From: Deltaproteobacteria bacterium | Lineage (GTDB): Bacteria > Desulfobacterota > Desulfarculia > Desulfarculales > Desulfarculaceae | DNA length: 39,956 nucleotides | Reading direction: 5' to 3' | Assembly: GCA_020444205.1 (NCBI GenBank) | Contig: JAHLLJ010000021.1 | Location: forward strand, 1-39,956 | Shown: positions 2,408-39,956 of the stretch, piece after piece | How positions within the stretch are numbered: the stretch's first letter is position 1 | Layout: every line of letters starts with the position of its first letter | Position numbers and translations under genes: made by a program | Notes under the pieces: model-generated | The model's input: only the letters and a program-made list of their open reading frames with translations | Databases searched by the model: none | Told to the model about the DNA's origin: nothing

Positions 2408-2435
2408 TTGTCTGTAAAGTGCCTGTTTATATAAA
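2408..2435 (+). promoter_or_regulatory. possible sigma70-type promoter for the DsbD-like gene
   Basis: TTGTCT, 16-base spacer, TATAAA in the divergent intergenic space, about 120 bases before the start at 2554. The match is partial and unsupported by other data. Confidence 0.25.
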
Positions 2436-2553
2436 CGTTTGCGTCACCCCGTCCCTTGGAATTATATGGTTTGACCCCCTGGCCGGCCTCGGGTATTTTT
2501 TTAGACGCGAGGGGATGACGATTACACCCTTCCCGGGAGCTTAATTCAGCATA

Positions 2554-3876: not shown

Positions 3877-3879
3877 TAC

Positions 3880-6872: not shown

Positions 6873-6929
6873 GGCATAGCCGCCAGCATATATCTTCTGT
6901 TAAATTAAAGACATCGGAGGTCAAAAACA

Positions 6930-7577: not shown

Positions 7578-8032
7578 AGGCGGCGCGGCTCATAAGCGTA
7601 ATTGGAGCGGGGGTTGCCGACCAGCGGCAAAAGCAAGACGCCTTCCAGGTGGGCGAGCTCTTGGCCCAGGCCGGATGGGGGGTGGTCTGCGGCGGGCTGT
7701 CCGGGGTAATGACCGAGGCCTGCCGGGGTTGCGCCTCGGCTGGGGGCCTCACCGTGGGCCTGTTGCCCGGCACTGAGCGTGAAGCGGCCAACCCCTGGTG
7801 CCGGGTGGTGCTGCCCACCGGCCTGGGCCAGGCGCGCAACGCCCTGGTGGTCTTGGCCGGACGGGGAGCTATCGCCATAGGCGGCGGGGGCGGCACCCTC
7901 AGCGAGATCGGCCACGCCCTCAAGGCGGGCCGCCCGGTGATAAGTTTTGGTTCTTGGCAGTTAGAGGGGGTGCCCCAGGCGGCGAACCCCGGCCAGGCGG
8001 TGGAGATGCTTTTAGGCCTGGTGGGAGGTTAA
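7571..8032 (+). CDS. TIGR00725-family Rossmann nucleotide-binding protein (LOG/MoCo-carrier-like)
   Basis: A 153-residue protein of the SLOG/lysine-decarboxylase-like superfamily. It begins with a dinucleotide-type loop (SVIGAG) and contains the superfamily signature as GGGGGTLSEIGHA (about residues 106-118), matching TIGR00725 proteins in length. Relatives include molybdenum-cofactor carrier proteins and cytokinin riboside monophosphate phosphoribohydrolases; a specific activity cannot be assigned here. The ATG at 7571 overlaps the pcm stop, and a strong terminator follows, so pcm and this gene form a two-gene operon. An upstream in-frame ATG at 7538 inside pcm is rejected because it adds residues foreign to the family. 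Confidence 0.85.
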   Translation: MVEAARLISVIGAGVADQRQKQDAFQVGELLAQAGWGVVCGGLSGVMTEACRGCASAGGLTVGLLPGTEREAANPWCRVVLPTGLGQARNALVVLAGRGAIAIGGGGGTLSEIGHALKAGRPVISFGSWQLEGVPQAANPGQAVEMLLGLVGG

Positions 8033-8070
8033 AGCTCAAATCCCAACCACTCATCCCCCGGATGAGCGCC

Positions 8071-8100
8071 ATGCCCCGCGTTGACGGGGCATTTGTATTT
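8071..8100 (+). terminator. rho-independent terminator after the pcm operon
   Basis: ATGCCCCG and CGGGGCAT form an 8-bp stem with a 6-base loop, followed by TTTGTATTT. Confidence 0.85.
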
Positions 8101-8143
8101 ATGCCATTCTTACGGCTGTTTCAGTTCTAGGGGGTTCCTCGTC

Positions 8144-9490
8144 ATGCACAATTTCAAGAATACCCAGGACGACTGGGAGCTGATCCTGGCCAAGCTCCAT
8201 CTGCTGGACAAGCTCAAGGAGTTCTGGGATTCGGTGGGCAATTGGGTGACCCAGGACCTGCTGGAGGTGGACACCCTGTACGAGCTGGGGGTGCTGGCCG
8301 CCATCTTCGCGGTGTCCTGGCTGTTGGCGCGCTGGCTGCGCGGCATCCTGTCGCACAAATGGGCCAAGACCCTTGAACGCGGCGACCGCCCGGCTCAATG
8401 GCGCCGGGATTTCTTGCGCCTGCTGGGCCCGGTAATTTCTTTGGCCTTCCTCTGGCCGCTTTACATCTTCTCCACCGAAGCAGGCATGGACAACGATTTG
8501 GTGAGCCTTTGCGCCAACACGGTAGGGGCTTGGGTGGTCATTCGCCTGGTCGCTGCGGTGCTGTTCAGGCCCTTCTGGGCTCGTTTTTTCGCCGTGTTCA
8601 TCTGGGTCATCGCCGCCCTGAGCATCTTCGGCTTGCTGGGCAGCGTGGTTCAGCTTTTGGATGCCGTAAAATTGACCGTGGGCAGCCTCAAGCTCTCCCT
8701 GTTGGAGGTGCTGGAGTCGCTGCTGTTTTTCATCGTCCTGCTGCGCCTGGGCATCCGGGCGGGTTCCTACCTGGAAGACCGCCTGGCGGCCAGCGGCGAG
8801 CTGGAGCCATCCACCCGCACCCTTATCGGGCTGCTGAGCAAGACCGTCATCATAGTAATAGTGGCCATCCTCTCCCTGGAGATCATCGGGGTGGACATGG
8901 ACATGCTCACCGTGTTCTCCGGGGCCCTGGGCTTCGGGTTGGGCATCGGACTGCGCACTGTATTCAGCAACCTGATCAGCGGCATCATCATTATGATGGA
9001 CAAGTCCATCCGCCCCGGCGACGTCATCTGGATCGGCGACGTTTTCGGCAAGGTAAGCGCGCTCAGGGCCCGCTACGCCTCGGTGGTCACCCGCGACGGG
9101 CAGGAATACCTGATCCCCAACGAGGACCTCTTGTCCCGCCAGGTCATCAATTGCTCCTACTCCTCCCGGGAGGTGCGCCTCAAGGTGCCCATTGACATCG
9201 CTTTTGGCAGCGACGTGGAGTTGGCCATGTCCCTGGCTGAGCAGGCGGCCCAGGGCATACCGCGCATTTTGCAACACCCTGCCCCGGCCTGCCGCCTGGT
9301 GGCCTTGGGCCATTTTTCCATCAACCTGTCACTGCGTTTTTGGATAGCAGACCCGGAGCACGGCGTGTCCAATGTGACCACCGAGGTGCTCAAAAAGGTG
9401 CTCAAGCTGTTTGCTGAAAACGGGGTGGAGATCCCCTATCCCCAACAGGACGTGCACATCAAGGACCGGGAATTAACGAAAACAACTTAG
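8144..9490 (+). CDS. MscS-family mechanosensitive channel
   Basis: A 448-residue inner-membrane protein that should open under membrane tension and release solutes during osmotic downshock. Five to six hydrophobic segments precede the MscS core. Its pore helix is Gly/Ala rich (GALGFGLGIGLRTVFSNLISG, about residues 265-285), followed by the beta domain (KSIRPGDVIWIGDVFGKV) and the PNEDLLSRQVINCSY signature, then the alpha/beta cytoplasmic cage. It is larger than E. coli MscS (286 residues) because of extra N-terminal helices, as in the YbdG/YjeP-like groups. The start ATG at 8144 has AGGGGG about ten bases upstream. The preceding terminator indicates its own transcription unit. It is convergent with the deaminase pair, with only one base between the stops. 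Confidence 0.93.
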   Translation: MHNFKNTQDDWELILAKLHLLDKLKEFWDSVGNWVTQDLLEVDTLYELGVLAAIFAVSWLLARWLRGILSHKWAKTLERGDRPAQWRRDFLRLLGPVISLAFLWPLYIFSTEAGMDNDLVSLCANTVGAWVVIRLVAAVLFRPFWARFFAVFIWVIAALSIFGLLGSVVQLLDAVKLTVGSLKLSLLEVLESLLFFIVLLRLGIRAGSYLEDRLAASGELEPSTRTLIGLLSKTVIIVIVAILSLEIIGVDMDMLTVFSGALGFGLGIGLRTVFSNLISGIIIMMDKSIRPGDVIWIGDVFGKVSALRARYASVVTRDGQEYLIPNEDLLSRQVINCSYSSREVRLKVPIDIAFGSDVELAMSLAEQAAQGIPRILQHPAPACRLVALGHFSINLSLRFWIADPEHGVSNVTTEVLKKVLKLFAENGVEIPYPQQDVHIKDRELTKTT

Positions 9491-9491
9491 C

Positions 9492-10802
9492 TCAGACCGG
9501 CCCTCCCAGCTTGGCGGCCAACTCCCGCACCTTGGCCATGACCTCCCCCAGGTCCATGGTGAGCAAGGCGCGCTCACGCACCACCTGCCGGCCGTTCACC
9601 ACCACGTGCCGCACCTGCCCGCCGGTGGCCGCGTAGACCAAATGAGAGGGAGCCTCAAAACAGGGGTTGAGGCGCGGGGCGGTGAGATCCATAACCACCG
9701 CGTCGCAGGCGTAGCCCGGGGCCAGGCGCCCCACCACGCCGTCCAAACCCAGGCAGGCGGCCCCCCCGCTCAAGGCCAGATCAATGGCGGCTTCAGCGGG
9801 CAGGGCGGCGGGATCTTTGGTCTTCACCTTGGCCAGCCGAGCGGCCAGGCCGATCTCGCCGAAGAGGTCCAAATTATTGTTGGAGGCTGCGCCGTCGGTG
9901 CCCAGGCCCACCTTAACTCCGGCGTCCAGCAGCTCGGGCACATGGGCCCATCCCGAGCCCAGCTTGCTGTTGGAGCCGGGGCAGGCGGCCACAGCCACCT
10001 CGCGCCGGGCCAGTAGCTCGGGCTCGCCGGGCTGCAACCACACGCAGTGCACAGCGGTGTCCAGACGCTCCAAAAGCCCCAGCCCTTCCAAATAGGCCAC
10101 CGGCGAGACGCCATTGGCCTTGACGCTGTTGTCCACCTCATCGGAGGTTTCGGCCAAATGGGTGTGCCACAGGCAGCCCATTTCTTGGGCCAGCTCGGCC
10201 ACGCCTTTAAGGGTGTCCTTGGAGCAGGTGTAGGTGCTGTGGGCAAACACGCCCGGGGTCAGCAGGGGGCTGTGTTCTTGCCAGCGCTCAAGGAAGCGCC
10301 GGGCGGTAGACAGGTTGTCGGCCGGGTCGGGCACCCCTGGCGCCGGAAAGTCGATTACCCCGTGGTAAAGCGCCGCCCGGATGCCCGCCGAGGCATAGGC
10401 CTTGGCCGCGCCGTTCAGACAGAAGTAGGAGTCGCCCACCGTGGTGGTGCCGGAAAGCAGCATCTCCGCCGCGGCCAACCGGCTGCACAGCTCCACCATC
10501 TCGTCGCTGACCCAGCGGGCCTCGGCCGGGAACATATGCTCCTCCAGCCAAACGCGCAGGGGGAGGTCGTCGGCCAGGCCGCGAAAAAGCACCATGGCTC
10601 CATGGCAATGGGCATTGACCAGGCCGGGCATTATCAGCCCACCCCCGGCGTGGACCACCTCGGCCTGGGGCGGCTTGGGCGCGCCCTCGGCCGGTCCGGC
10701 GTAGGTGATCACCCCGTCTACCGCGGCCACCGCGCCCACGGGCCAGTAGCTGCCCGATCCAGCCCACAGGGGCCCGCCGGTGATGAGCAGTCCTTGGGAC
10801 AT
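9492..10802 (-). CDS. MTA/SAH deaminase-type amidohydrolase, copy 2
   Basis: A 436-residue member of the TRZ/ATZ-MtaD branch of the amidohydrolase superfamily. These enzymes deaminate S-adenosylhomocysteine, 5'-methylthioadenosine or related adenosine derivatives. Visible metal and catalytic motifs are NAHCHGAM (HxH), HTHLAETSDE, and GTDGAASNNNLD with the catalytic Asp; RGLADDLPL near the N-terminus is typical of the family. The gene follows its paralogue with a TGATG one-base overlap, so the two are co-translated. A longer frame reaching 10916 only adds low-complexity sequence inside the upstream gene. Substrate differences between the copies cannot be read from sequence. Confidence 0.88.
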   Translation of the reverse strand: MSQGLLITGGPLWAGSGSYWPVGAVAAVDGVITYAGPAEGAPKPPQAEVVHAGGGLIMPGLVNAHCHGAMVLFRGLADDLPLRVWLEEHMFPAEARWVSDEMVELCSRLAAAEMLLSGTTTVGDSYFCLNGAAKAYASAGIRAALYHGVIDFPAPGVPDPADNLSTARRFLERWQEHSPLLTPGVFAHSTYTCSKDTLKGVAELAQEMGCLWHTHLAETSDEVDNSVKANGVSPVAYLEGLGLLERLDTAVHCVWLQPGEPELLARREVAVAACPGSNSKLGSGWAHVPELLDAGVKVGLGTDGAASNNNLDLFGEIGLAARLAKVKTKDPAALPAEAAIDLALSGGAACLGLDGVVGRLAPGYACDAVVMDLTAPRLNPCFEAPSHLVYAATGGQVRHVVVNGRQVVRERALLTMDLGEVMAKVRELAAKLGGPV

Positions 10803-12121
10803 CACAACACCCGGCACCCGGTGAGGGCACTGGCCTGTTCCTTGGCCCTGGCCATCACCTCTTCGCTGTCCATGGACTCCACCTTGCCCTCGGCCATGAG
10901 CACCTCGCCGTGACACACGGTGTGCAGCACGTCGGAGCCGCGCGCCGCGTAGACCAGGTGACTAAGGGGATTGTACATGGGCGTCAGGTGGGGCTGGTTG
11001 GTGTCCACCACGATGACGTCGGCCAGGGCGCCGGGCTTCAAGACTCCCAGTTCACCGGGGCGGCCAAAAGCGGCCGCGCCCAAGCTGGTGCACAGCCTCA
11101 CCACCGCCTCGGCAGGGGCTACGGTGGGGTCCAGGCGCGAGGCCTTGGCCAGCTTGGCGCAGGAGTCCATCTCGCCGAATAGGTCCTGGTCGTTGTTGCT
11201 GGCACAGCCATCGGTGCCCAGGCCGACCTTTACCCCGGCGGCCAGCAGCTCGGGCAAGGGGGCCACTCCGTTGGCCAGCTTCATGTTGGACTCGGGGCAG
11301 TGGGCCAGCCGCGCTCCGGCGGCGGCCAGGCGCTCAATCTCCTGCTGGTTCAGGTCCACCCCGTGGTTTATCCACAGACGCTCATTGACCAGGCCCAACT
11401 CCTCCAGCACCGCCAGGGGCCGCGCGCCCCACATCTTTTGCACCTGAGCGGTCTCATCTTGATTCTCGGCCAAATGTATGTCCAGGGCCGCCCCGGTCTC
11501 GGCGCTGATAGCCCCGGCCTTGCTCATCAGGGAGCGGGAGCAGGTGTACAGGGCATGGGGCATTACCGCCGCGTCCAGGCGGGAATGCGGGGCCAGCTTG
11601 TCTATCAGCTCCCTGGTTATGGCCAGGCCGTTGTCGATCTTGCCATAGGAGGGGGAGTCAAAGTCATAAAGCACCTCACCCACCACGGCCCGCAGCCCGG
11701 TGTCGTCGGCCGCCTGGGCCACCTGGTCGGCGAACAAATACATGTCGCAAAAACTGGTAGTGCCCGAACGGATCATTTCCAGGCAGGCCAACATGGCCCC
11801 CCAGTACACCGCCTCGGAGGTGAGCTTGGTCTCGGCCGGAAAAATGTGCTGATTCAGCCATACGTCCAGAGGCAGGTCGTCGGCCAGGCCGCGCATCAGG
11901 GTCATGGATACGTGGGTGTGGCCGTTGATGAGCCCCGGCATTATCAGCCCGCCGTGGGCGTCCAGCACCCGCCGCTCCGGCCCGGCGGCCATCTCCCCGG
12001 CCTGGGCCGGGCCACAGTAGGTGATCCGTGAGCCCTGGATGAGTAGCGTGCCGCCTTGGATGACTGCACCCGCCTCGTCCATGGTCAGGATGGTGCCGTT
12101 GGTTATGCAGAGCTCTTTCAA
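10802..12121 (-). CDS. MTA/SAH deaminase-type amidohydrolase, copy 1
   Basis: A 439-residue enzyme of the same family as the gene downstream, with NGHTHVSM, RGLADDLPLDVW, HLAENQDE and GTDGCASNNDQD motifs. Together these supply the metal-binding histidines and catalytic Asp of MtaD-type deaminases. The likely role is recycling of SAM by-products (SAH to S-inosylhomocysteine, or MTA to methylthioinosine). The TTG start at 12121 is supported by AAGGAG eight bases upstream. It is the promoter-proximal member of a tandem pair; the paralogues are clearly related along the whole length but not near-identical, so the duplication is old. Confidence 0.88.
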   Translation of the reverse strand: MKELCITNGTILTMDEAGAVIQGGTLLIQGSRITYCGPAQAGEMAAGPERRVLDAHGGLIMPGLINGHTHVSMTLMRGLADDLPLDVWLNQHIFPAETKLTSEAVYWGAMLACLEMIRSGTTSFCDMYLFADQVAQAADDTGLRAVVGEVLYDFDSPSYGKIDNGLAITRELIDKLAPHSRLDAAVMPHALYTCSRSLMSKAGAISAETGAALDIHLAENQDETAQVQKMWGARPLAVLEELGLVNERLWINHGVDLNQQEIERLAAAGARLAHCPESNMKLANGVAPLPELLAAGVKVGLGTDGCASNNDQDLFGEMDSCAKLAKASRLDPTVAPAEAVVRLCTSLGAAAFGRPGELGVLKPGALADVIVVDTNQPHLTPMYNPLSHLVYAARGSDVLHTVCHGEVLMAEGKVESMDSEEVMARAKEQASALTGCRVL

Positions 12122-12228
12122 CTACCCGGCTCCTTGTTGGGTGAGTTTCGCTGGCCATATAAGGTAGCACAGGAACCAGAGCCCGGCGAAGGGCGAGCGA
12201 ACTCCTCCGGCCTTGTCAGAGGCACTAC

Positions 12229-12702
12229 CTACCGGGAATAGGCGCACTCCGCGTCGTAAATACCGGGGATCACACCTTGCTTCCTGGTCACGGTCACCGT
12301 GAAGCTGTCGCCCGCTTTCATGTAACCTCGCCCCAGCACCGAGGAGATGCCTTGGGAAAAGCCGCCGGGGCCGCAGGTTTCGCTGCCGTCGGAGTTCATG
12401 GAACTGTCCGGGCTGGATATCCTGAGACCCTTGTCCAGATAAAGTTGATCGCCGCCGCTCAGCGGAGGCCAGGAGTTAAAGGTGCCCGAGCTGCCGATGG
12501 AAACGGTGGTGCCGCTGCCTTGGCGGGTGCTGGAGCCGTTGACCACCTTGTAGCTGGCGTAGCCGAAGTTGATGCTGGCATAGGTTGAGTTGTTGACCAC
12601 CTTTACGGTCGGTCCGTTGGGTCCGGCCAAGCTGCCCTCCCCGTTGAAAACGATAGCGCCAAGGGCAAATAGCAATACAGCGGCCAAAGCAATTTTACGC
12701 AT
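12229..12702 (-). CDS. secreted protein of unknown function
   Basis: A 157-residue protein with an N-terminal export signal (KIALAAVLLFALGAIVF, cleavage probably before AGPNG). The mature part is rich in Ser, Gly, Asn and Thr with alternating hydrophobic residues (VKVVNNSTYASINFGY), which suggests an all-beta fold. It has two cysteines, one mid-way (ETCGPGG) and one near the end (AECAYSR), which could form a disulfide outside the cytoplasm. A good ribosome site (GGAG) precedes the ATG. The opening NNS-beta pattern is reminiscent of aegerolysin-like or lectin-like sandwiches, but I cannot identify a family. It stands alone, with no obvious link to neighbours. Confidence 0.72.
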   Translation of the reverse strand: MRKIALAAVLLFALGAIVFNGEGSLAGPNGPTVKVVNNSTYASINFGYASYKVVNGSSTRQGSGTTVSIGSSGTFNSWPPLSGGDQLYLDKGLRISSPDSSMNSDGSETCGPGGFSQGISSVLGRGYMKAGDSFTVTVTRKQGVIPGIYDAECAYSR

Positions 12703-12876
12703 CTGGTGACTCCAGGTTCTCGGTTGTAAATACCAATGAAAGCGGACCTATCGTAAACGGGGCAGTGCCAAGGTTTTTAATAGAATTAACCCTAAAGATC
12801 AAGCAGCTAATTTGCGCAGAAAAATTGTAGTCTAGCGGCGCGCCGCCCCCGGCTTTCGTCTGCCATGGTTTGGGCA

Positions 12877-12906
12877 TTGACATCATTTTTTAAAACCCGT
12901 GACAAT
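12877..12906 (+). promoter_or_regulatory. possible sigma70 promoter for the GNAT gene
   Basis: A perfect TTGACA, 18-base AT-rich spacer and GACAAT lie about 115 bases before the acetyltransferase start, inside the 318-base space between divergent genes. Nothing else was recognised in this space. Confidence 0.45.
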
Positions 12907-13020
12907 TAATTTAGGCCTAGCTTGCGCAACCGGATGCATCCCCAAGGCCGAACGAGGCGGCTAACCGCTTCTCCCTCGCTGGAACGGAGCCGTGCTAGGC
13001 TCCTGGAGAAAGGATGCTTC

Positions 13021-13473
13021 ATGGGCCAAGAAGCCATTAAGATTCGTCTGATGCGTGCCGACGACTTCGACGCGGTAGTGGAAGTCGACCGCAAGATCAT
13101 GCGGGATGCCAGGCCGGATTACTATGAGCTGAAGTTCGACAAGCTTTTCAAGTCAAAGGACTACGTGCCCGCCTCCCTGGTGGCGGAAAGCGCCGACAGC
13201 GCGGTGGTGGGGTTCGTCATGGGCGAGCTTTACCTAGGGGAGTACGGCATGCTGCAGGAATCGGCCACCTTGGACACTATCGGGGTGGACCCGGATTTTC
13301 AGCATCAGGGCATTGGTGAACGTTTGATGCAGGAGTTCGTGGAGCACATGCGCAGCCTGGGGGTGGAAAAGATACACACCCTGGTGCACTGGAACGATTC
13401 CAACCTGATCCGCTTTTTCAGCGCCAACAGCTTCAGCCCCTCCAAAACCATCAACCTGGAGCTAAACCTCTAG
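13021..13473 (+). CDS. GNAT-family N-acetyltransferase
   Basis: A 150-residue acetyl-CoA-dependent transferase. The GNAT core is clear: an N-terminal IRLMRADDFDAVVEVDR opening, a central beta strand (ATLDTIGVDPDF), the acetyl-CoA pyrophosphate loop QHQGIGERL (about residues 97-105), and a C-terminal segment HWNDSNLIRFFSANSF typical of RimI-like members. The ATG at 13021 has GGAGAAAGGA just upstream and gives the normal family length; an in-frame ATG at 12922 would add a basic tail without a ribosome site. Substrate is unknown. It appears to be a single-gene unit with its own promoter. Confidence 0.88.
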   Translation: MGQEAIKIRLMRADDFDAVVEVDRKIMRDARPDYYELKFDKLFKSKDYVPASLVAESADSAVVGFVMGELYLGEYGMLQESATLDTIGVDPDFQHQGIGERLMQEFVEHMRSLGVEKIHTLVHWNDSNLIRFFSANSFSPSKTINLELNL

Positions 13474-31746: not shown

Positions 31747-31824
31747 TCTAACTCACCACCTACTTCGCCAAAACAGGGCCCAGCCCCAAGGCTGAACCCC
31801 GCCAAAATACTGTGGCGGCCCCAA
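31747..31824 (-). repeat. tRNA-tail/terminator repeat, copy 1
   Basis: First of four same-orientation copies. Read on the minus strand it has a degenerate tRNA-like 3' end (TTGGGGCCGCCA at 31813-31824), then a terminator hairpin and a GGTGAAGTAGG-like tail (here GGCGAAGTAGG). It is the most diverged copy. It lies left of the PF04909 amidohydrolase. Confidence 0.7.
31769..31800 (-). terminator. terminator hairpin in repeat copy 1
   Basis: Minus strand stem GGGGTTCAGCC / GGCTGGGCCCT with loop TTGG, then TTTTGG. It pairs through G-U wobbles only as minus-strand RNA. Confidence 0.55.
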
Positions 31825-31885
31825 GGGGCGAAGGGTGTGGGTCGCTTCGGCGGTGGGCTCGGACAGGGGGTAACATGTTAGTTCA

Positions 31886-31894
31886 TGTTATAAT
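31886..31894 (+). promoter_or_regulatory. extended -10 promoter for the PF04909 amidohydrolase
   Basis: A perfect extended -10, TGTTATAAT, ends 37 bases before the TTG start. No -35 is seen. The palindrome TAACATGTTA and a direct repeat CATGTTA-gtt-CATGTTA (31874-31890) overlap it and could be an operator. Confidence 0.5.
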
Positions 31895-31931
31895 TGAATA
31901 AATTTTAAGAAATTGAGCCGAGGAGGCGAAC

Positions 31932-32810
31932 TTGATTGACTGCCACATGCATCTGCATGAATCCATGGTTTCCTTGCCAGGGATTGTTGCCAGCATGGAC
32001 AAGTTCGGAATTCAGCGCACAGCCCTTATACCCAGATTGAATCCTCCCATATATGCAATGCCTCTATTACTCAGGATGACAACGCCTCTGCTTCGTAAGA
32101 TTCTATATTCAGATGGAGGATGGCTACATGGGTTGGCGTTGAAGATGTATGAAAGCTGGTCCCGCGACGACGGAACCGTTCTAATCGGTTTAAAGCGATA
32201 TAAAATTATCGCGGCTCCCGACAACACTGAGGTCACATCGGCCTTAAAACATTATCCAGACCGCTTTTGGGGTTGGATTTTCGTTAATCCACGTTGTTCG
32301 ACTGACCCATTGGCTGAAATAGAAAAATACTGTCATGTGCCAGGAATGATCGGGGTGAAGGCTCATCCTTATTGGCATAATTATCCGATACAAGAACTTA
32401 TAAAAACGGCGGAATTGTGTACGGAAAATAATTTACCCATGCTCATTCATCTGGGTGTGAAGCAGCATGGTGACTATAATTTTTTGCCGAGCATGTTTCC
32501 CAAGCTAAAAGTGATTTATGCCCATGCCGGGGTGCCTTATGGCCACAGTGTCTGTGAACTTGCCGGAGAAATGAAAAATGTCTTTATCGATCTATCCTCA
32601 CCAGCCTATATGGATATTAAAACGGCCCACCGCGCCATAGCAAAAGCCGGTGCGAATAAGTGCCTATTCGGTTCTGACGGACCTTACCTCAATACCTCGG
32701 GCGACCGTTACGATTACGGCCCGATTACCAGTATCGTAAAAGCTTTGGATCTGTCCGAGGATGATCGCGCAAGAATTGAGCGCTTGAATTTCATCGATAT
32801 TTTACAATAA
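31932..32810 (+). CDS. amidohydrolase-2 (PF04909) family protein
   Basis: A 292-residue TIM-barrel metal-dependent hydrolase or decarboxylase of the Amidohydro_2 group. Metal ligands: HxH in DCHMHLHE (H5, H7), Lys-bearing IGVKAHPYW, LIHLGVK, YAHAGVPYG and the catalytic Asp in LFGSDGPY. Related enzymes decarboxylate aromatic or tetracyclic acids or hydrolyse small cyclic amides; substrate unknown. The TTG start at 31932 has a perfect AGGAGG five bases upstream. It is the sole gene between repeat copies 1 and 2, with lower GC than the chromosome to the left, and has its own promoter. Confidence 0.85.
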   Translation: MIDCHMHLHESMVSLPGIVASMDKFGIQRTALIPRLNPPIYAMPLLLRMTTPLLRKILYSDGGWLHGLALKMYESWSRDDGTVLIGLKRYKIIAAPDNTEVTSALKHYPDRFWGWIFVNPRCSTDPLAEIEKYCHVPGMIGVKAHPYWHNYPIQELIKTAELCTENNLPMLIHLGVKQHGDYNFLPSMFPKLKVIYAHAGVPYGHSVCELAGEMKNVFIDLSSPAYMDIKTAHRAIAKAGANKCLFGSDGPYLNTSGDRYDYGPITSIVKALDLSEDDRARIERLNFIDILQ

Positions 32811-32921
32811 AAATACAGCATCGTCGTACAGGTAATGCTAAGCGACTTCATCCTGCACACGGCTACGTCGAAATAGTAAGTCCGTCGAGTGCTTCCAGCC
32901 GGAAGCCAAGCCGTCAAATTC

Positions 32922-33027
32922 AATCTACTTCACCAAAACAAAACGGGGCCCAGCCAAATGGCTGAACCCCTCAAAAATGCTATGGCATCCCCAAAGTGAC
33001 CGCTCAAGAACACCTTGTTGCGATAAG
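32922..33027 (-). repeat. tRNA-tail/terminator repeat, copy 2, with extra arm
   Basis: Minus strand: tRNA-like end TTGGGGATGCCA (32983-32994), then the terminator hairpin and GGTGAAGTAG tail. It shares a further 33 bases (32995-33027) with copy 3 only. These lie on the side where the tRNA body would be, so they probably come from related elements. Confidence 0.75.
32933..32970 (-). terminator. terminator hairpin in repeat copy 2
   Basis: Minus strand stem GGGGTTCAGCC / GGCTGGGCCCC, loop ATTT, followed by GTTTTGTTTT. Confidence 0.7.
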
Positions 33028-33079
33028 CAGTTCTAGGGGCTTGCTAAATCAGTCGAGGCCTCTCGAGGACCAGGCAAGC

Positions 33080-33235
33080 CTACCACTCAATACCTGGCCA
33101 CGGGAAGGGCATGGGGTCCCAGATTGTCCAGGTGGACCCGGTGCCTACATCGCCCTGGTTTTTTCCGCCTGAAGCGAAGGCCAAAGAACCAAACAGGAAC
33201 AGGATAACCAGCGTCATCACGATGATTTTTTTCAT
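33080..33235 (-). CDS. 51-residue secreted Trp/Pro-rich peptide
   Basis: A short gene encoding a classic signal peptide (MKKIIVMTLVILFLFGSLAF, cleavage likely after AFA) and a 30-residue mature part. That part has a Gly-rich stretch (SGGKNQGDVGTGS) and ends in TWTIWDPMPFPWPGIEW, with four tryptophans, four prolines and Trp as last residue. There is no cysteine. The ribosome site is weak (GCGAG). The -10 TATAAT at 33295-33290 lies about 55 bases upstream. It is the only gene between repeat copies 2 and 3. A role as a secreted signal, toxin or binding peptide is open; I know no family. Confidence 0.6.
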   Translation of the reverse strand: MKKIIVMTLVILFLFGSLAFASGGKNQGDVGTGSTWTIWDPMPFPWPGIEW

Positions 33236-33289
33236 AACTCAACTCGCTTCGAAGGGTTAAAGCAGACGCCATAGGTATGGTATATGTCT

Positions 33290-33295
33290 ATTATA
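33290..33295 (-). promoter_or_regulatory. -10 box for the 51-residue peptide gene
   Basis: TATAAT on the minus strand in an AT-rich stretch; -35 is not clear. A partial Fur-like sequence (TTGATAATCATTTA) lies where the -35 would be, around 33308-33321. Confidence 0.35.
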
Positions 33296-33433
33296 TTAAA
33301 CGGTTTTATTGATAATCATTTAAAAATAATATTCACCTATAGTCAATGGTTATTTGTTACCGCCTTGGTAGGTCTTTGGGGAAAGATATCGGCGCCTATT
33401 GCCACTTACCGCCTTCCCGGCACACTCACCAAA

Positions 33434-33546
33434 TCTACTTCGCCACCTACTTCAGCAAAAAAACGGGGACCAGCCAAATGGCTGAACCCCGCAAAATACT
33501 ATGGCGTCCCCAAAGTAACCGCTACAGGACACCCTGGTGCGATAAG
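33434..33546 (-). repeat. tRNA-tail/terminator repeat, copy 3, with extra arm
   Basis: Minus strand: tRNA-like end TTGGGGACGCCA (33502-33513), then a hairpin with one U-U mismatch and seven Ts, then a tail with two CTACTTC-type units on the plus strand. It shares the extra arm of copy 2 (23 of the last 28 positions match). Confidence 0.75.
33457..33491 (-). terminator. terminator hairpin in repeat copy 3
   Basis: Minus strand stem CGGGGTTCAGCC / GGCTGGTCCCCG, loop ATTT, followed by TTTTTTTG. Confidence 0.7.
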
Positions 33547-33560
33547 GGGAAAACCCCTTA
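33543..33560. repeat. perfect 7-bp hairpin next to repeat copy 3
   Basis: TAAGGGG, loop AAAA, CCCCTTA. It directly joins the end of the copy 3 arm and may be part of an integrase-arm site or leader of the next gene; no T tract follows. Confidence 0.5.
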
Positions 33561-33648
33561 CGGAGTTTTCAGGGAAAAGCTACAATAGGCATTATCAATG
33601 CGTGGCGGTGTCTGAGTCCTCATATAAATTCTTACAAAGGGGATAACC

Positions 33649-33936
33649 GTGAAGAAGCTAGTTTGCATCGCACTGGTGCTGTCTTTTGTGTTCGCAGCTC
33701 TGCCGGTAATGGCTGGGGACCAAGGAAGATACGTGATTGTGCGGCCTACCGATTCAAAGGTCCCAGGGCTTTTGATTGACTCACAAACAGGCAAGGCTTG
33801 GGCGGTAGTGGTGAATACCAACTGGAAAGAAAACAAAGCACCTCAAATCTATATGATGCCAATTCCCTACGATACGAGGCCTAAAGCTAATCTTGGCGAC
33901 GTAAGAGGCTTCAAGTACACACCCGGCCAAAACTAA
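33649..33936 (+). CDS. small secreted protein of unknown function
   Basis: A 95-residue protein with signal peptide KKLVCIALVLSFVFAALPVMA and a mature part with the strand pattern GRYVIVRPTD, GLLIDSQTGKAWAVV, PQIYMMPIP. The LIDSQTGKAW motif is like single-blade or beta-sheet secreted domains in which a D-x-x-T-G-K-x-W turn is conserved. The GTG start has AAAGGGG seven bases upstream. First gene to the right of repeat copy 3. No known family assigned. Confidence 0.7.
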   Translation: MKKLVCIALVLSFVFAALPVMAGDQGRYVIVRPTDSKVPGLLIDSQTGKAWAVVVNTNWKENKAPQIYMMPIPYDTRPKANLGDVRGFKYTPGQN

Positions 33937-34090
33937 AAGATTCACCACGCGTGTCCGGTTAGGGTTGGGTGGTAAGGGCAACCGTTTAGATGTCCTAGTC
34001 ACTAATTGCGTTTACAGATTGGCCTTCCGGCAGATGGTCTAGGTTGTAACTTGTCTACCCTCACTTGATGTTTAGACCATATATATTTTC

Positions 34091-34996
34091 TCAATGCTTG
34101 GTGCCTCCAACAACCAAGCCGCGGGCACGCTGGCAGGCCGTGCGGGGGTTGTCCTTTATCAAATCCATTAATGCGGCAACCTCCTTAGAGTTGGCTTGGC
34201 GGCTTGCCTTTAACTGCTCCAGCCAGGCGGCCTCCAGCTTTTTCAAGGAAAGCCCGTAAACTTCCTGCCAAGCGCGCCCACCGTCCCGTGCCAGGCGGCA
34301 AAGCCTTTTCATTCTATTTATGCCGTGGGTTTTAATCAGGTACTCCCCGAATGATCCTGATTCCACGTAAGCTGCATGTTGCCTGGCTCGGTCAGAGACA
34401 AAGGGCTTCTGGCCTCTGAACTCCATCCCCCAGTCGCCGTGATCCGGGCCCAAACTGGTCAAGGGAATATAAGAGCCTAGGCTGATAAGGGCTTGCACCC
34501 ATAGATCGTTATTATGCCCGCACATGGGAAAGGATTTGCGGCTGCCGAACCGGTTTTCGGAATATATGCCCATCATATTGCGGATCAGCTTGTCCCGGCT
34601 GGGGAAAACGGCGTGGGTCAGTTTGTGCGCCAGGCCATAGGGCTGCCCCTGGGCTCCGAAGACTCGCACAATACGCACTCGGCGCCCTTCGTCCTGCGAC
34701 CAAAAGAAAATCGAGGTACGGGTGGTATCGTTTAAAGGGCGGCGGAACTCCAGCTTTATCTTGCCGAACCGTTCTACCTTGGCACTGATTTGCCATGTTT
34801 GCAGTATCTGCTCTAGAGTCTGCTCTGCCTGGCCGGCCAATTCCTGCAATCGCGCAGAAGACACTACACTGGGTGCCCCGCTGACTGTTAGATGTTGGGT
34901 CTGAACAACCTGGCTTGTTTCACTTGCGACAGCGCCAGAGGTGATCAACAACATGGCTGCAAGTGCAGCCACCTCGGCCTTTAATCTGATTCGCAT
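34091..34996 (-). CDS. exported peptidase-MA-like protein with altered zinc motif
   Basis: A 301-residue exported protein (signal ending GAVASE). The build resembles gluzincin/peptidase-MA-like proteins: a hydrophobic strand, then GLAHKLTHAVF where the family has HExxH, and later SGSFGEYLIKTHG, the usual downstream helix with the third-ligand region. The catalytic Glu of HExxH is Lys here (HKLTH, residues 124-128), so the protein is probably not a working peptidase, though both His ligands remain. ATG at 34996 is chosen over GTG at 35002 because AGGGGG lies six bases before it. Convergent with the small secreted protein. Confidence 0.68.
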   Translation of the reverse strand: MRIRLKAEVAALAAMLLITSGAVASETSQVVQTQHLTVSGAPSVVSSARLQELAGQAEQTLEQILQTWQISAKVERFGKIKLEFRRPLNDTTRTSIFFWSQDEGRRVRIVRVFGAQGQPYGLAHKLTHAVFPSRDKLIRNMMGIYSENRFGSRKSFPMCGHNNDLWVQALISLGSYIPLTSLGPDHGDWGMEFRGQKPFVSDRARQHAAYVESGSFGEYLIKTHGINRMKRLCRLARDGGRAWQEVYGLSLKKLEAAWLEQLKASRQANSKEVAALMDLIKDNPRTACQRARGLVVGGTKH

Positions 34997-35014
34997 GAGC
35001 ACCCCCTGTTATTA

Positions 35015-35305
35015 GGATCATGTCACCTTTATGCCGGATGCCGCTAAACCAGTAAGCAGGTTTTCCGCTATGCCTGTCCCGGGACCAAGTGTGAACCCCA
35101 GCTTTGACCTCACCTAAGTAATTTTCGACACTTCATCGGTGGTTCGCTTGCGCTCATCTTCCTGACACACACCTGTCACGGACCACTACCGTGACTTTTC
35201 CTTAACGCTTACCACCCCTAGCTCTTTACCAGCGCAGTTTAAGGGGGTTGGAGCCTGTTCCCGCAGACCGACTCCCAGGGGCCTCCCCTCATCACTTTCA
35301 TAGTT
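35015..35305 (-). mobile_element. truncated group II intron-like RNA (5' domain)
   Basis: On the minus strand this 290-base stretch looks like structured RNA rather than coding DNA. It has a hairpin GTCACGG/CCGTGAC, a GCAA tetraloop hairpin (GAGCGCAAGCGAACC), the run GCGTTAAGGAAAAGTC and a GTGAGGTCAAAGC segment, all of which I associate with the 5' part of bacterial group II introns. No reverse transcriptase follows; instead the peptidase-like gene starts just downstream. The identification is from pattern memory only. Confidence 0.45.
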
Positions 35306-35314
35306 ACATTCAAC

Positions 35315-35584
35315 TTATATTATGGGCGGATTTGGCGCCGAAGGGGTTGTTTTTCTAATTTTGGGTTTGGTCCCCTTTAGCCGTGGGCTGTTCAGGCTAT
35401 ACCACCTCCGGCTGGCCTCATACCAGGCCTTCTTGCGCCAGGCATGCAGGCGAGATTCGTGCAGCCCCAGCTGCTTGGCCGCGTCGGCCACTTCCACCTG
35501 TTCGGCCAGACTAAGGGCCTCTGACTTGAATTCGGGAGAGTAGCGCCTGCGGGTCGTCTTGGTCTGCTTCTGCTTTAGGGGCAT
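35315..35584 (-). pseudogene. truncated IS3-family transposase OrfA
   Basis: An 89-residue frame starting PLKQKQTKTTRRRYSPEFKS, followed by EALSLAEQVEVADAAKQLGL and HESRLHAWRKKAWYEASR. This is the helix-turn-helix DNA-binding start of IS3-type OrfA, with Leu-zipper and OrfB missing. After YEASR (about residue 59) the sequence no longer matches, and the frame runs on for 30 unrelated residues up to the group II intron-like stretch. The element cannot move by itself. Confidence 0.75.
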
Positions 35585-35918
35585 GGATCATCTCCGCCAT
35601 GCAATCTTCTCGCTTAACGAAGTGTCCGTCAAAAATGGGCTCATGATCAGGGCATCTAGGAAATCAGCGGCTACTGAACGTAATTTGGAGAAGACGTTCT
35701 CGCAGATTTTGCCTGGCTGGCAGGCTAGAGCAGTAATACTTCCTATTGACTGGTGAACATTTCGATAGCAGTATGGATATATAAGTAGTGAATATCATTA
35801 TCTACGCCTCTGCCGAAACCTTGCAGCACCTTGTCTACATCCTTAGAACGTATCGGAAGAGGCCCTTTGCCGATTCCGTCCGATCCTCAGGTTTTCTTTG
35901 CATGATTTGGATAAGGTC
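35585..35918. other. 334-base gap before the PAS-LuxR gene
   Basis: Probably leftover IS end (GTGTCCGTCAAAAATGG near 35622) plus the upstream region of the regulator. TTGACT at 35746 could be a -35, but the -10 at normal spacing (CAGTAT) is poor. No gene supported. Confidence 0.4.
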
Positions 35919-37607
35919 ATGAAGCAAAAACCTACCTATGAAGAACTTTTAAAAAGAGTACACGAATTAGAATCGAATGAATATGAAAACAATAAACGCT
36001 TAGCTTGCGTTAACGAACAAATTGAAGATTTAAAAAACCTATTAGATTGCGTTACTTTCGTGGTTTATATGAAGGATGATAAAGGAGTTTACACCTATAT
36101 AAATAAGGGGTTCGAAAATTTATCCCAGTTAAAGCAAGAAAATGTACTCGGAAAAACGGATCTAGATTTGTTTCCTGAAAAAGGTGCAGAAAAAACCTCT
36201 CAAAATGACAGGATTGTAATGGAAACTGGTCACCCCCTGGAAATAGAAGAAATCGGGCCTGTGCATGGGGAAATGCATAGATTTTCCTCTTTAAAATACC
36301 CACTGAGGTCCCAACATGGTGATATTCATGGAGTATTCGGAATATCAACAGACATCACCGCGCAAAAGCAAGTAGAAAAAGAATTAATACTTTTGCGGAA
36401 CGTCGTTGAACAGAGTGTAGATGGTCTAGCCGTGGTTGATATGGAAGGGAATTTGCAATATCTCAATGCTGCTTTTGCACAATTGCATGGTTATGACCCC
36501 AAAGATTTAATTGGAAAAAATTTAACAATTTTTCATAGTAAAGATCAACTGGCAGAGGTAGAAGCAGCCAATCAGCAAACCAAAAATACTGGAAAATTTT
36601 ATGGAGAGATTTGGCATGTTAGAAAAGACGGTACTGCATTCCCTGGTTTGATGCACAACAGCCTTATAAAAAATGCTCAGGGGAAGCCGGTTGGAATGAC
36701 GGGGACCCTGCGGGACATAAGCAATTTAAAGAAAATAGAAAAAGAACTCAGGGAAAGTGAAGAACGCTTTAAGACGACATTTGAAAATGCTCCAGTTGGA
36801 ATAATACTTGCTGATTTTGATGGAACTTTTAAATCGGCAAATAAAAAAATGTATGAAATGTTCGGTTATGATTATAATCTTGATGCAGAAGAAAACATTG
36901 TTATTGAAAAAATAACCCATAAGGATGACGAACATACAATAGAATGGTTTAGAAAATTAACGTCACACGAAATTGATAATTATACAATTGAGAAACGCTA
37001 TGTCCGTAAAGATGGGTCAACAATGTGGGGTCGTGCCACTGTGGTGGCTATTTATTCACAAACCAACCAGCCGAAGTATATTTTAGTAATTATAGAAGAC
37101 GTCTCTCGCGTCAAAAAATTTGAAAAGGAGCTTAGGTCAGCCAACTACATGCTTGAGAAGAGAGTTCGTGAACGTACTGATGAATTAGAAAAGCTCAACG
37201 TTGCCTTGCGGGTATTACTAGACCACAGGGAAAAAGAGAAGGAGGCCCTAGAAGAAACCATCGCTTCGACAGCTACTGTCCAGATCACGCCATTCATTGA
37301 TCGTCTGAAAAAAAACAACCTAAGCGAGAGCCAGAATTCGCTTCTTACGATGATCGAAAATGGCCTCAAGGAGATGGTTTCTCCATTTTCAGGCAAACTT
37401 AATACAAAACTATCGGGACTGACTCCCAGAGAAAAAGAAGTGGCTCTTTTGATAAGAGACGGTTTCACCAATGCTGCAGCGGCAGACGCCTTGGCGATCT
37501 CTGAACATTCAGTGGCATTTCACAGACAAAATGTGAGACGCAAGCTCGGCCTCAAAAACACTAAAGCCAATCTTACCAGCTACTTACAGGACTTACCAGA
37601 GCTCTAG
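35919..37607 (+). CDS. PAS-domain sensor with LuxR-type DNA-binding domain
   Basis: A 562-residue soluble one-component regulator. A short coiled N-terminus (PTYEELLKRVHELE) precedes three PAS domains: about 40-145 (VYMKDDKGVYTYINKGFE), 160-270 (AVVDMEGNLQYLNAAFAQLHGYD, with PAC GTLRDIS) and 280-395 (GIILADFDGTFKSANKKMYEMFGYD). A coiled coil (RVRERTDELEKL) leads to a C-terminal LuxR/GerE helix-turn-helix (LTPREKEVALLIRDGFTN, ISEHSVAFHRQNVRRKLGL). No membrane helix and no kinase. The ATG at 35919 is preceded by GGATAAGG; a TTG seven codons earlier is less likely. Strongly AT-richer than the chromosome, typical of transferred DNA. Target genes and signal are unknown. Confidence 0.88.
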   Translation: MKQKPTYEELLKRVHELESNEYENNKRLACVNEQIEDLKNLLDCVTFVVYMKDDKGVYTYINKGFENLSQLKQENVLGKTDLDLFPEKGAEKTSQNDRIVMETGHPLEIEEIGPVHGEMHRFSSLKYPLRSQHGDIHGVFGISTDITAQKQVEKELILLRNVVEQSVDGLAVVDMEGNLQYLNAAFAQLHGYDPKDLIGKNLTIFHSKDQLAEVEAANQQTKNTGKFYGEIWHVRKDGTAFPGLMHNSLIKNAQGKPVGMTGTLRDISNLKKIEKELRESEERFKTTFENAPVGIILADFDGTFKSANKKMYEMFGYDYNLDAEENIVIEKITHKDDEHTIEWFRKLTSHEIDNYTIEKRYVRKDGSTMWGRATVVAIYSQTNQPKYILVIIEDVSRVKKFEKELRSANYMLEKRVRERTDELEKLNVALRVLLDHREKEKEALEETIASTATVQITPFIDRLKKNNLSESQNSLLTMIENGLKEMVSPFSGKLNTKLSGLTPREKEVALLIRDGFTNAAAADALAISEHSVAFHRQNVRRKLGLKNTKANLTSYLQDLPEL

Positions 37608-38041
37608 CCTATTTCTAAAAACATATAGTTGGCACTAGTAAGTAGGTTTAACCTACTTGTAATCCATTTAAACCCTATCTTACCAAAAAACTAAAATTAT
37701 AATATATTTTATATAGTTGTACGTTTCTGCCATGTTTCCGAGGTGCTTGTGTAAACGACAATTAATTTCTCTTCGGCATTCTCCACGGGGCATGAAATAA
37801 ATTGACACCATCATCTAAGGCAGCTTTCCCTGGTGGCGGTAGCGCAACCGCTGATGAAAGTTTGCGATCATCTGCCGATCTTCATTATCAGTGTCGCACC
37901 AGAACTGGGCTCAAGTTCAGTAACTCTGATGGATGCCAAGCAGCTCGTGCCAGAATTGAGGAAAATCCAAGCTATATTGACATGTTAGGATGTCGCAAAT
38001 GCTCGGGCCCCTTACCATTAGCAGAAAATGGAGAGCAAACG
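37608..38041. other. 434-base gap after the PAS-LuxR gene
   Basis: Holds a palindrome (37640-37658). A 44-codon plus-strand frame (37854-37988) and an upstream extension of the zinc-ribbon gene frame (from 37802) compete in the same stretch; neither has a ribosome site and I support neither. Confidence 0.4.
37640..37658. repeat. 19-base perfect palindrome
   Basis: AAGTAGGTT, one central T, AACCTACTT. No T tract follows, so it is more like a protein-binding site than a terminator. It lies 33 bases after the PAS-LuxR stop. Confidence 0.5.
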
Positions 38042-38458
38042 ATGTCTAGCAATGAGGATGATGCCCACAGAACCGTAAAACCTCCTTCTGAACCTGAGAT
38101 GTGCAAGTGCGGCCGTGGGCCTGTAGCTATCCGAAAGAATGGCACCTCTGCTGGCAGATGCAGGCAATGCATGTCTGACGTTGCTAAAAAATGGCCCAGG
38201 GGAAGAAAGCAATCTAAGAAAAAAAAGGACGATAAATCAACAGAAGTTGGTGCCGTGTTGGATACACATGTTTTGCTTGGGTTGCTAAAGGAAAGAAAAG
38301 AAGAGGCCGAAAGTTTAGTAAACAATTTGATTGAAAAAGGTGCGCTAAACGGGGACAAGGATCTCTCCCAGGCAATCATATCCTTTATTAAATTCATGGC
38401 AACTATGGATGTTGTACTAAAAACTGAAACGCTGGAAAACAATAATATCAAGAATTAG
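38042..38458 (+). CDS. zinc-ribbon protein of unknown function
   Basis: A 138-residue protein. An N-terminal acidic part precedes a four-cysteine zinc ribbon (CKCGRGPVAIRK then GRCRQCMSDV), a very basic run (RGRKQSKKKKDDK) and a helical C-terminus (LLGLLKERKEEAESLVNNLI). The layout suggests nucleic-acid binding. GGAGAG lies six bases before the ATG. AT-rich like the PAS-LuxR gene, so probably the same incoming segment. No family recognised. Confidence 0.55.
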   Translation: MSSNEDDAHRTVKPPSEPEMCKCGRGPVAIRKNGTSAGRCRQCMSDVAKKWPRGRKQSKKKKDDKSTEVGAVLDTHVLLGLLKERKEEAESLVNNLIEKGALNGDKDLSQAIISFIKFMATMDVVLKTETLENNNIKN

Positions 38459-38519
38459 CTTCAACTGTTTAATAGTGTTCTAATAATTAAGTTTCCTATG
38501 GGGTTTGTACTTGGCGAGC

Positions 38520-38692
38520 TGACCCGCCCCCCCCTTAAACCGTTCCAGATTTTAAGGTAGGTTTTTTGCCCTAAAAAGGGAGGGCGATTATGACCAGGAA
38601 ACGCAATTAGGCCGAGCAGACCATCGGCAAGTTGCGTGAGGCAGAGATTTTAAGGGGCCAAGGGCCAGCTAACTGTCTTTTGGGGTATAGGT
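38520..38692 (+). mobile_element. IS3-family (IS407-like) left-end remnant with dead orfA
   Basis: A terminal-repeat-like TGACCCGCCCCCCCCTTAAA is followed by an orfA start at 38590 reading MTRKRN, stop (TAG), AEQTIGKLREAEILRGQG. This matches the beginning of IS3-type OrfA (MKRxRFTEEQI...LREAE) with one nonsense codon. The rest of the element is gone. Confidence 0.6.
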
Positions 38693-38706
38693 AAACCCAC
38701 TCCCAA

Positions 38707-38789
38707 TATACTTCACCTCCTACTTCACCAAAACAAAACGGGGCCCAGCCAAATGGCTGAACCCCGCAAAAATGCTATGGCGTCCCCAA
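38707..38789 (-). repeat. tRNA-tail/terminator repeat, copy 4
   Basis: The best preserved copy. Minus strand: CCCGTTGGGGACGCCA (38778-38793), which looks like T-stem, acceptor strand and CCA of a tRNA (E. coli tRNA-Glu ends GGGGACGCCA), then TAGCATTTTT, the terminator hairpin and a GGTGAAGTAGG tail. The tRNA body does not continue to the right of it. Confidence 0.8.
38730..38766 (-). terminator. terminator hairpin in repeat copy 4
   Basis: Minus strand stem CGGGGTTCAGCC / GGCTGGGCCCCG (12 pairs including two G-U), loop ATTT, followed by TTTTGTTTTGG. Confidence 0.8.
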
Positions 38790-38841
38790 CGGGTGCCGGA
38801 AAACTGCTTTGGGCGATGGCTGAGCTGAAGATGGCCGGCTA

Positions 38842-39768
38842 TCAATTCAATGAAAAATATCCCTGATCCTCTTTGGCTCTTCCATTGGCGATCAAGCGTT
38901 CCAAATGCTTTTTCATGATGGCCCACTCGGCCACCATGTAAGACTCAATAGGCTGGCGCGGTTTTCGATAGGCGATCCAGGCGTTGATTATCTCTTCACG
39001 GGTGCGGGGCCGGGCCAGAAATTCGATCAACTTTGCTTCCCGTTGGTCGATTACTTCCAAGAACTGTTGCCAAAGAGGCCCAGGGTTTTGCGTGAAGACA
39101 CCGGTCTCATGGCTGGTGAGCCACACCTTGGCCGGGATGTGGCTCAGGTATTCGACTGAGTCTCTTACCGCCTGGATGTCGGCGTGAAGCTCTCCATAGT
39201 AGGGCCCAAAGGGGGTAAGGTCATAGTCCCCCAGGAAGAGGACTTCGGGCTCCTTGAAAAAAAAGCTCAGATGACCGGGTGTGTGCCCAGGCGTAGCCAG
39301 CACCTCCACGGTAACCGTTTCCAGATTAATCGTCTCACCCGGGGTAAGGAAGCCACTGGGCACGCGAGGCCGGTAGTGAAAATACTCGCGCAATTGCTTC
39401 CGCCAAGCTTGCCGAGTACCGGCTTCATCCATTCCGTACCAATCTAAAAAAATTTCTATGTCGGTCAGTGGAGGAGCGTCCTTTGAGGACATCTTCAGGG
39501 GCAAGTCGTCGAAGAGATCCAAGTAGGCCAGGTGGTCCTCGTGCCAGTGGCTAAGCCAGACTTCACGCACCCCCGGCCCTTCCCTTAGCTGTGTCAGGAT
39601 TTGCTTGTCAGAGGCCGGGTCAATCAGTATTCCGGCGCCCTCTATATAGATGGAATGGCATCGTGGGTACTTGCCCCGATTTCTCCCAGGCACGAACCAC
39701 ACGGGCCCGAAATGATGTATTTTATCCAAGGCTTTTTCCTTTTCACCCACTGGGCAACGTCGTTTCAT
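38842..39768 (-). CDS. MBL-fold metallo-hydrolase
   Basis: A 308-residue beta-lactamase-fold hydrolase with the metal motif SHWHEDH (H74, H76, D78, H79), the second His in LATPGHTPGHLSF, and GDYDLTPFGP for the bridging Asp. The opening HFGPVWFVPGRNRGKYPRCHSIYIEG resembles proteins that act on glyoxalase-II-like or lactone substrates, and a C-terminal helical extension (about 240-308) is present. ATG at 39768 has no ribosome site; a TTG at 39729 with AAGGA eight bases upstream is a real alternative and would give 295 residues. Nothing clear lies between it and the window end. Confidence 0.85.
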   Translation of the reverse strand: MKRRCPVGEKEKALDKIHHFGPVWFVPGRNRGKYPRCHSIYIEGAGILIDPASDKQILTQLREGPGVREVWLSHWHEDHLAYLDLFDDLPLKMSSKDAPPLTDIEIFLDWYGMDEAGTRQAWRKQLREYFHYRPRVPSGFLTPGETINLETVTVEVLATPGHTPGHLSFFFKEPEVLFLGDYDLTPFGPYYGELHADIQAVRDSVEYLSHIPAKVWLTSHETGVFTQNPGPLWQQFLEVIDQREAKLIEFLARPRTREEIINAWIAYRKPRQPIESYMVAEWAIMKKHLERLIANGRAKEDQGYFSLN

Positions 39769-39956
39769 TTATTTGAAGTGGTAGGCTATTTTCCTATACG
39801 GCCATCATCACCCCGTTCTTGGCCCAAATCCTAACTTAAAATTTCAACCTGGTTAAGGGTGGCCTCTCAAATATGACCTTCTCCCAAATCCTTTACCAGG
39901 AAAAGAATTAGGATTTTGGCCCATCGCGATCATGGGTATGGGTTCGGGAGGCTCCA

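Follow-up and report, generated by a model that had tools for sequence, protein, structure and literature searches.

A probable tandem accretion array at tRNA-Glu(TTC) in a Desulfarculaceae bacterium

Results

Modules and intervals of the window

The window, i.e., the whole stretch of DNA that was analysed (39,956 nucleotides), is the entire contig C135 of assembly G000, a MAG of 4.44 Mb in 342 contigs and 82% complete; the contig ends at 39956. A repeat search of the window gives four modules in one shared orientation. The features considered are the following.

1..13461: flank whose reversed sequence runs collinear with G006 593.3-606.8 kb, a region 67 kb downstream of the G006 tRNA-Glu(TTC)
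31748..31828, minus strand: module copy 1, with tRNA-Glu tail 31813-31828, hairpin 31772-31803 and decayed repeats 31748-31769
31829..32924: interval between copies 1 and 2 (1.1 kb), with one amidohydrolase gene, 31932-32810 (plus strand)
32925..32994, minus strand: module copy 2, with tail 32983-32994 (by eye), hairpin 32945-32970 and a single repeat unit 32925-32934
32995..33027, minus strand: left arm of copy 2, probable tRNA-side end of an element, resembling the arm of copy 3
33028..33435: interval between copies 2 and 3 (0.4 kb), with one small ORF, 33087-33272 (minus strand)
33436..33513, minus strand: module copy 3, with tail 33502-33513 (by eye), hairpin 33463-33492 and tandem repeat 33436-33456
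33514..33546, minus strand: left arm of copy 3, resembling the arm of copy 2
33547..38708: interval between copies 3 and 4 (5.2 kb), with ORFs 33649-33936, 34091-35002 (minus strand) and 37802-38458, a fragment of a transposase-type HTH protein, 35315-35584 (minus strand), and a PAS-LuxR protein, 35898-37607
38709..38793, minus strand: module copy 4, with tail 38778-38793, hairpin 38738-38767 and tandem repeat 38709-38729
38794..38836, minus strand: left arm of copy 4, resembling the left arm of the G006 546-kb copy
38837..39956: interval to the right of copy 4, truncated where the contig stops, with an MBL-fold hydrolase, 38842-39768 (minus strand)

Read on the minus strand, each module opens with a tail of 12-16 nt from a tRNA 3' end; a linker leads on to a hairpin, behind which come a T tract and then a 12-bp tandem repeat. 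A first-pass annotation of the sequence had described four such modules in the same orientation, and this is borne out: all four are recovered both by the repeat search and by an HMM built from the relatives' copies alone (E values 1.2e-25, 5.2e-20, 9.5e-18 and 3.7e-16, the best match in the reversed window having E 0.64). The tail is identical to that of tRNA-Glu(TTC) over 16/16 nt in copy 4 and 14/16 in copy 1, and, as read by eye, over 12/12 in copy 3 and 11/12 in copy 2. The same annotation held that the tRNA body is missing at every copy; indeed, a tRNA scan of the window finds no tRNA gene.

It had also been claimed that the hairpin is fully paired only as minus-strand RNA. This holds in part: copies 1, 2 and 4 are fully paired as minus-strand RNA and copy 3 has one internal mismatch, with folding energies from -21.6 to -26.1 kcal/mol on the minus strand vs. 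-13.0 to -19.3 kcal/mol on the plus strand. Since the plus strand also folds, and better than nearly all shuffles, the strand preference is a matter of degree. Base changes in the hairpin give a weak signal, 2 of the 13 pairs being altered on both sides, and were set aside as evidence.

The intervals had been described as holding single orphan genes and no integrase. The description fits the two short intervals, and the lack of an integrase stands; the 5.2 kb interval holds several ORFs. None of the ten places in G000 that match Phage_integrase (PF00589) is on C135, no integrase C-terminal remnant was found in the window (one of eight sequences searched for them), and the interval ORFs that were scanned include no recognisable gene for integration, phage structure or transfer. 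The ORF 33087-33272 (at most 61 aa) has an N-terminus that is signal-peptide-like by eye and no match in a family scan. The DNA of the MBL-fold hydrolase finds a match at 77% in G005; no module is listed for the G005 contig concerned. Defence cargo was considered and rejected, the sole match being a weak one to the PAS-LuxR protein.

Source of the tail

Searched against 98 genomes, copy 4 finds module matches in 7, i.e., G000 and six of its seven congeners; there is no match in G002 and none outside the genus. In G006, which is a single contig, an intact tRNA-Lys(TTT) and tRNA-Glu(TTC) lie at 525834-526001 and the module follows directly, with no gap. Copy 4 matches the end of this tRNA-Glu gene and its terminator at 93% over 84 nt. 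An intact tRNA-Glu(TTC) was found in four of the eight genomes of the genus (G004, G005, G006 and G007). It is followed by the full module in G006 and G004, by a related hairpin without the tandem repeat in G007, and in G005 by a different terminator and then, by eye, an apparent large serine recombinase.

A tRNA with this 3' end had been expected to the right of 39956, where the contig ends, or elsewhere in the genome. The relatives supply it as an intact tRNA-Glu(TTC), which is absent from the 21 tRNA matches of G000, where Glu(CTC) is included; a strict pattern of T-arm plus tail has no match in G000 either. A first DNA search of G000 returned the four window modules and no others. A shorter query and a trained model recover one more copy, which follows a fragment of tRNA-Glu(CTC) where C317 ends; weaker module places in G000 are on C44, C237 and C249. 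The proposal of integration at one tRNA gene is made more precise by the identity of that tRNA, Glu(TTC), and qualified by the repeat that also follows the Glu(CTC) fragment.

Tandem repeats and left arms

The unit of the tandem repeat is approximately GGTGAAGTAGGA and lies beyond the T tract. The repeat is intact in copies 3 and 4 and decayed in copies 1 and 2, one unit remaining in copy 2. This 12-bp feature was absent from the first-pass annotation. The pattern GGTGAAGTAGGWGGTGAAGTA, with at most 2 mismatches, occurs at 13 places in six of the eight genomes of the genus (0 places for the backward control), 11 of them inside modules and the other two at 1531 kb in G006 and on C183 of G000. 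Exact matches of the tandem repeat in the named genome collection amount to five stretches; two are G003 C434 and G004 C8, and the remaining three, in a Clostridia MAG and a Lentisphaeria MAG, were taken as chance. The 12-bp repeats are probable arm sites, to which an integrase would bind.

The extra 33-base arm that had been noticed in copies 2 and 3 is confirmed as common to both: with the tail included they are 85% identical over 54 nt, and the score of the arms alone is matched by 5 of 5000 random pairs. Window positions 38709-38836 match the G006 546-kb copy at 86%, and the score of the two left arms (copy 4 vs. G006 546.2) is equalled by 1 of 5000 random pairs. This counterpart in G006 is the far end of an interval that bears an integrase. 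The remaining pairs among the seven left arms are unremarkable, the next best being G006 546.2 vs. 3152.9 (0.015). A likeness of the copy 4 left arm to G006 3152.9 kb was rejected as not significant, 0.075 of random pairs being equal. The length of tRNA retained at the junction is 12-16 nt in the window copies and at G006 546.2 and 3152.9, and about 10 nt at G004 C87. Because left arms are alike, some of these short junctions look like the ends of related elements and not like random decay.

Array and recombinase in relatives

G006 encodes a 348-aa tyrosine recombinase (527138-528184), antisense to the tRNA and starting 1.1 kb past tRNA-Glu. It belongs to PF00589, and the catalytic R, HxxRH and Y are seen by eye. 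Further modules follow downstream of tRNA-Glu(TTC) on the same strand, at 546.2, 549.4 and 550.5 kb (about 20, 23 and 24 kb on). A weak one at 567.3 kb (about 41 kb downstream) scores 23 bits and is missing from the matches of the trained model. The intervals of this array measure about 20.2, 3.2, 1.1 and 16.9 kb, and just one of the 19 PF00589 places of G006 is within the array, in the first interval. G007 has a weak module 14 kb downstream of its tRNA, on the same strand (26 bits, or 41 bits with the trained model).

Integron membership and a viral origin were considered for the G006 recombinase and rejected: (i) it scores 38.3 bits as an integron integrase vs. a cut-off of 265; (ii) the best phage proteins among the matches listed (10 of 242) are about 26% identical to it. 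One distant viral contig is 24% identical, and the nearest solved chain is XerA.

Seven displaced pieces of tRNA-Glu(TTC) were found, in G003 (C434, C492, C141 and C305), G005 (C35), G001 (C17) and G006 (549 kb). Their matches to the gene span 34-49 nt and range in identity from 39/49 to 42/42, and by our own reading of the 78-nt gene each piece extends into the anticodon arm. The anticodon arm is a usual crossover place. The displaced piece on G003 C492 is followed by a recombinase that shares 41% identity with the G006 enzyme. C-terminal integrase remnants lie near modules in three of the eight sequences searched (G004 C8, G001 C17 and G004 C87), so integrase loss does occur in the setting of the module.

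Position of the window relative to the tRNA

The flank 1-13461 is reversed with respect to G006; therefore the minus strand of the window corresponds to the plus strand of G006, which carries tRNA-Glu(TTC). By our own arithmetic, chance alone would place a spot within 67 kb of the tRNA, correct in both side and strand, less than 1% of the time. The flank recurs on G005 C35, and about 3 kb beyond its edge there is a displaced piece of tRNA-Glu in the same orientation. G007 does not have the flank downstream of its tRNA, and in G001, G002 and G003 pieces of the flank are on contigs without a listed module. G004 C87 was considered as the far end of an array and rejected, its module and flank being in the wrong relative orientation.

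In G000 itself, the flank upstream of the tRNA is on C15; judged by G006 spacing, about 2.7 kb separate the end of C15 from the tRNA. C135, too, breaks off, at 39956, and we infer that it would continue to tRNA-Glu(TTC). A fifth module just past the contig end was considered on the basis of 39873-39953, a sequence that is adjacent to a module in G005; the prediction was dropped because this sequence is a dispersed repeat in several genomes.

Discussion

Proposed accretion at tRNA-Glu(TTC) and its alternatives

The window is very probably part of a tandem accretion array at tRNA-Glu(TTC) of this Desulfarculaceae bacterium, with an inferred join to the tRNA. Elements with a tyrosine recombinase would integrate into the 3' part of the tRNA-Glu gene. 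Each incoming element would bring a tRNA 3' end of its own together with a terminator and repeats, by which the gene would be restored, and the older 3' end would be displaced downstream. Repeated rounds would leave, on the same strand, copies of tail, terminator and repeat separating the elements, and the window would hold four such junctions; this is a putative order of events. Serial integration at one tRNA gene, as first proposed for this locus, is supported by G006, where the tRNA is followed by tail and terminator, by a recombinase and by same-strand copies, and by the collinear flank with its orientation. The features of a tRNA island, i.e., an intact tRNA with a displaced 3' fragment in the same orientation and a tyrosine recombinase adjoining the tRNA, are all found in G006, and the window shows the displaced tails only. 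As no integrase or transfer gene was recognised in them, the window intervals are read as remnants of cis-mobilizable type or as mini-elements.

Several observations stand against accretion at tRNA-Glu(TTC): (i) the window tails measure just 12-16 nt vs. 34-49 nt in the seven displaced pieces of relatives, so that the crossover point of the window copies is left imprecise; (ii) two of the five strong displaced copies in G006, at 3148.97 and 3152.9 kb, are on opposite strands and far from tRNA-Glu; (iii) a copy on G005 C106 adjoins tRNA-Met; (iv) no Glu(TTC) was found in G000, and an intact one was found in just half of the genus genomes. The short tails, together with the similar left arms of copies 2 and 3, would also be explained if, instead of site-specific integration, segmental duplication or homologous recombination between repeats had produced the copies at a tRNA hot spot, and the integrase remnants make deletion evident. 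Against this, no long repeat links one interval to another in the window repeat search, an integrase stands beside the G006 tRNA, the seven displaced pieces reach the anticodon arm, and the G006 interval that bears an integrase has, at its far end, a counterpart of the copy 4 left arm. Such an origin is therefore considered unlikely.

The outlying G006 pair and the copy beside tRNA-Met would suit an ordinary dispersed repeat derived from a tRNA (REP- or MITE-like) and unrelated to integration at tRNA-Glu, as would the copies on contigs where no tRNA-Glu is seen (G004 C87 and C27, G003 C305 and C434, G001 C17). Yet, of the five strong displaced copies in G006, three are located at most 42 kb downstream of tRNA-Glu(TTC) and on its strand (with the weak copy counted, four of six), and the module stands directly behind the intact gene in both G006 and G004; moreover, the outlying pair lies between duplicate IS-like ORF pairs, a possible carrier, and the proteins compared between the duplicates are identical. 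A dispersed repeat is considered very improbable. That the modules are ordinary terminators with a chance likeness to a tRNA is hardly credible: a hairpin and T tract are present in 4/4 copies, but the match of copy 4 to the G006 gene runs through the tRNA end as well as the terminator.

An array outside the genus was sought with an RNA model, R1, trained on 21 copies including the four of the window. It gives 23 places outside the genus, of which 22 were scanned for tRNAs; a tRNA gene is present at 19 (Glu at 17, Asp and Arg at one each), three of the 22 are without a tRNA, and at one locus the tRNA is about 170 nt from the match. With a tRNA gene at 19 of 22 loci, R1 mostly finds an ordinary tRNA plus terminator outside the genus, and its matches there were rejected as evidence for the array.

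Comparison with known systems

Tycheposons of Prochlorococcus are tRNA-targeted elements with tyrosine recombinases and cargo; the array at tRNA-Glu is likened to them by general description. The nearest published analogue found, with the same logic, is the set of ssrA islands of Dehalococcoides, which lie in tandem downstream of one RNA gene and are bounded by repeats of its 3' end (PMC3146451). Fifteen of these islands are described there as being without an integration module, and the authors suggest that they might be cis-mobilizable elements (PMC3146451). In that system the target is tmRNA, the repeat is of 20 bp and the recombinase is a serine recombinase (PMC3146451), whereas the tRNA-Glu array has a tyrosine recombinase and its repeat carries a terminator and tandem repeats.

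CIMEs have lost integration and transfer genes, kept attL and attR, and become stacked by site-specific integration (PMC5704250). The window intervals resemble them in having no recognised integration or transfer genes among the scanned ORFs. As for putative att sites, tail and tandem repeat are present at copies 3 and 4, with decay at copies 1 and 2. Unlike in the CIME/ICE/IME accretion of that review (PMC5704250), no parent with transfer genes was identified for the window, and intervals go down to about 0.5 kb. The tRNA-gene islands of Islander have their ends marked by a regenerated tRNA gene and a displaced fragment (PMC4383910); in the window, the displaced part is just 12-16 nt and is present four times. 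With respect to an integron cassette array, the window repeat is a tRNA tail plus terminator, and the G006 recombinase is below the integron cut-off.

Accretion at RNA genes is already known, and what is seen here is probable accretion of very small pieces at tRNA-Glu. A limited literature search found no description of an accretion hot spot at a tRNA in Desulfarculaceae, and the present locus adds a well-marked one for this family. Because the repeated unit includes the terminator and the probable arm sites, old and new junctions are readable. The tiny integrase-free intervals allow the question to be asked whether a tRNA gene can collect single genes in trans. On a doubtful reading, the intervals of 0.5-1.2 kb might be movable single-gene mini-elements, made of a tRNA-tail core, terminator and arm sites and gathered at tRNA-Glu in trans by resident recombinases, instead of products of decay, and the tRNA gene would then be the collecting site of a cassette array, integron-like in function. 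Other tRNAs of the family are followed, by eye, by a terminator and then by different tandem repeats of 10-13 bp.

Hot spots at tRNA-Glu genes

A second hot spot is located at tRNA-Glu(CTC) (extracted loci L161, L162, L157-L160 and L115). A recombinase gene adjoins this tRNA gene in the genome to which the window belongs (G000) and in the congeners G002, G006 and G007, and displaced pieces of it are found 28-48 kb further on in these three congeners. In G000, displaced tRNA-Glu(CTC)-like pieces are localized at the ends of contigs C44 and C317 (loci L188 and L059); such repeats may thus have caused assembly breaks in this genome.

In the congener G005, contig C96 (locus L080/L150) carries an intact tRNA-Glu(TTC) followed by a terminator unlike that of the module, and past it an apparent gene for a large serine recombinase. 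Because of this different terminator and of the putative serine recombinase, a second element type may use tRNA-Glu(TTC) as target. On contig C35 of the same genome, the linker and terminator behind a displaced tRNA-Glu piece form a palindrome, with about 25 bp per arm as judged by eye (locus L056, 9960-10038).

Repeats and element ends

Both outlying modules of the congener G006 (3148.97 and 3152.9 kb) are flanked by an IS-like ORF pair, present in two copies (locus L048, 188-1407 and 18888-20000) whose compared proteins are identical.

Dispersed repeats of the window, each found at several places in the genus genomes
31617-31675, dispersed repeat
33544-33625, dispersed repeat
33988-34045, dispersed repeat
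38517-38671, dispersed repeat; by eye, its sequence resembles the beginning of an IS3-type element
39873-39953, dispersed repeat; it runs up to the contig end

Asp, Gln, Asn and Arg tRNAs or tRNA pieces of the family (loci L187, L189, L190, L193 and L201) are followed, by eye, by a terminator, beyond which lie tandem repeats (10-13 bp) different from that of the module. A terminator plus tandem repeats is perhaps a general layout of element ends in this family.
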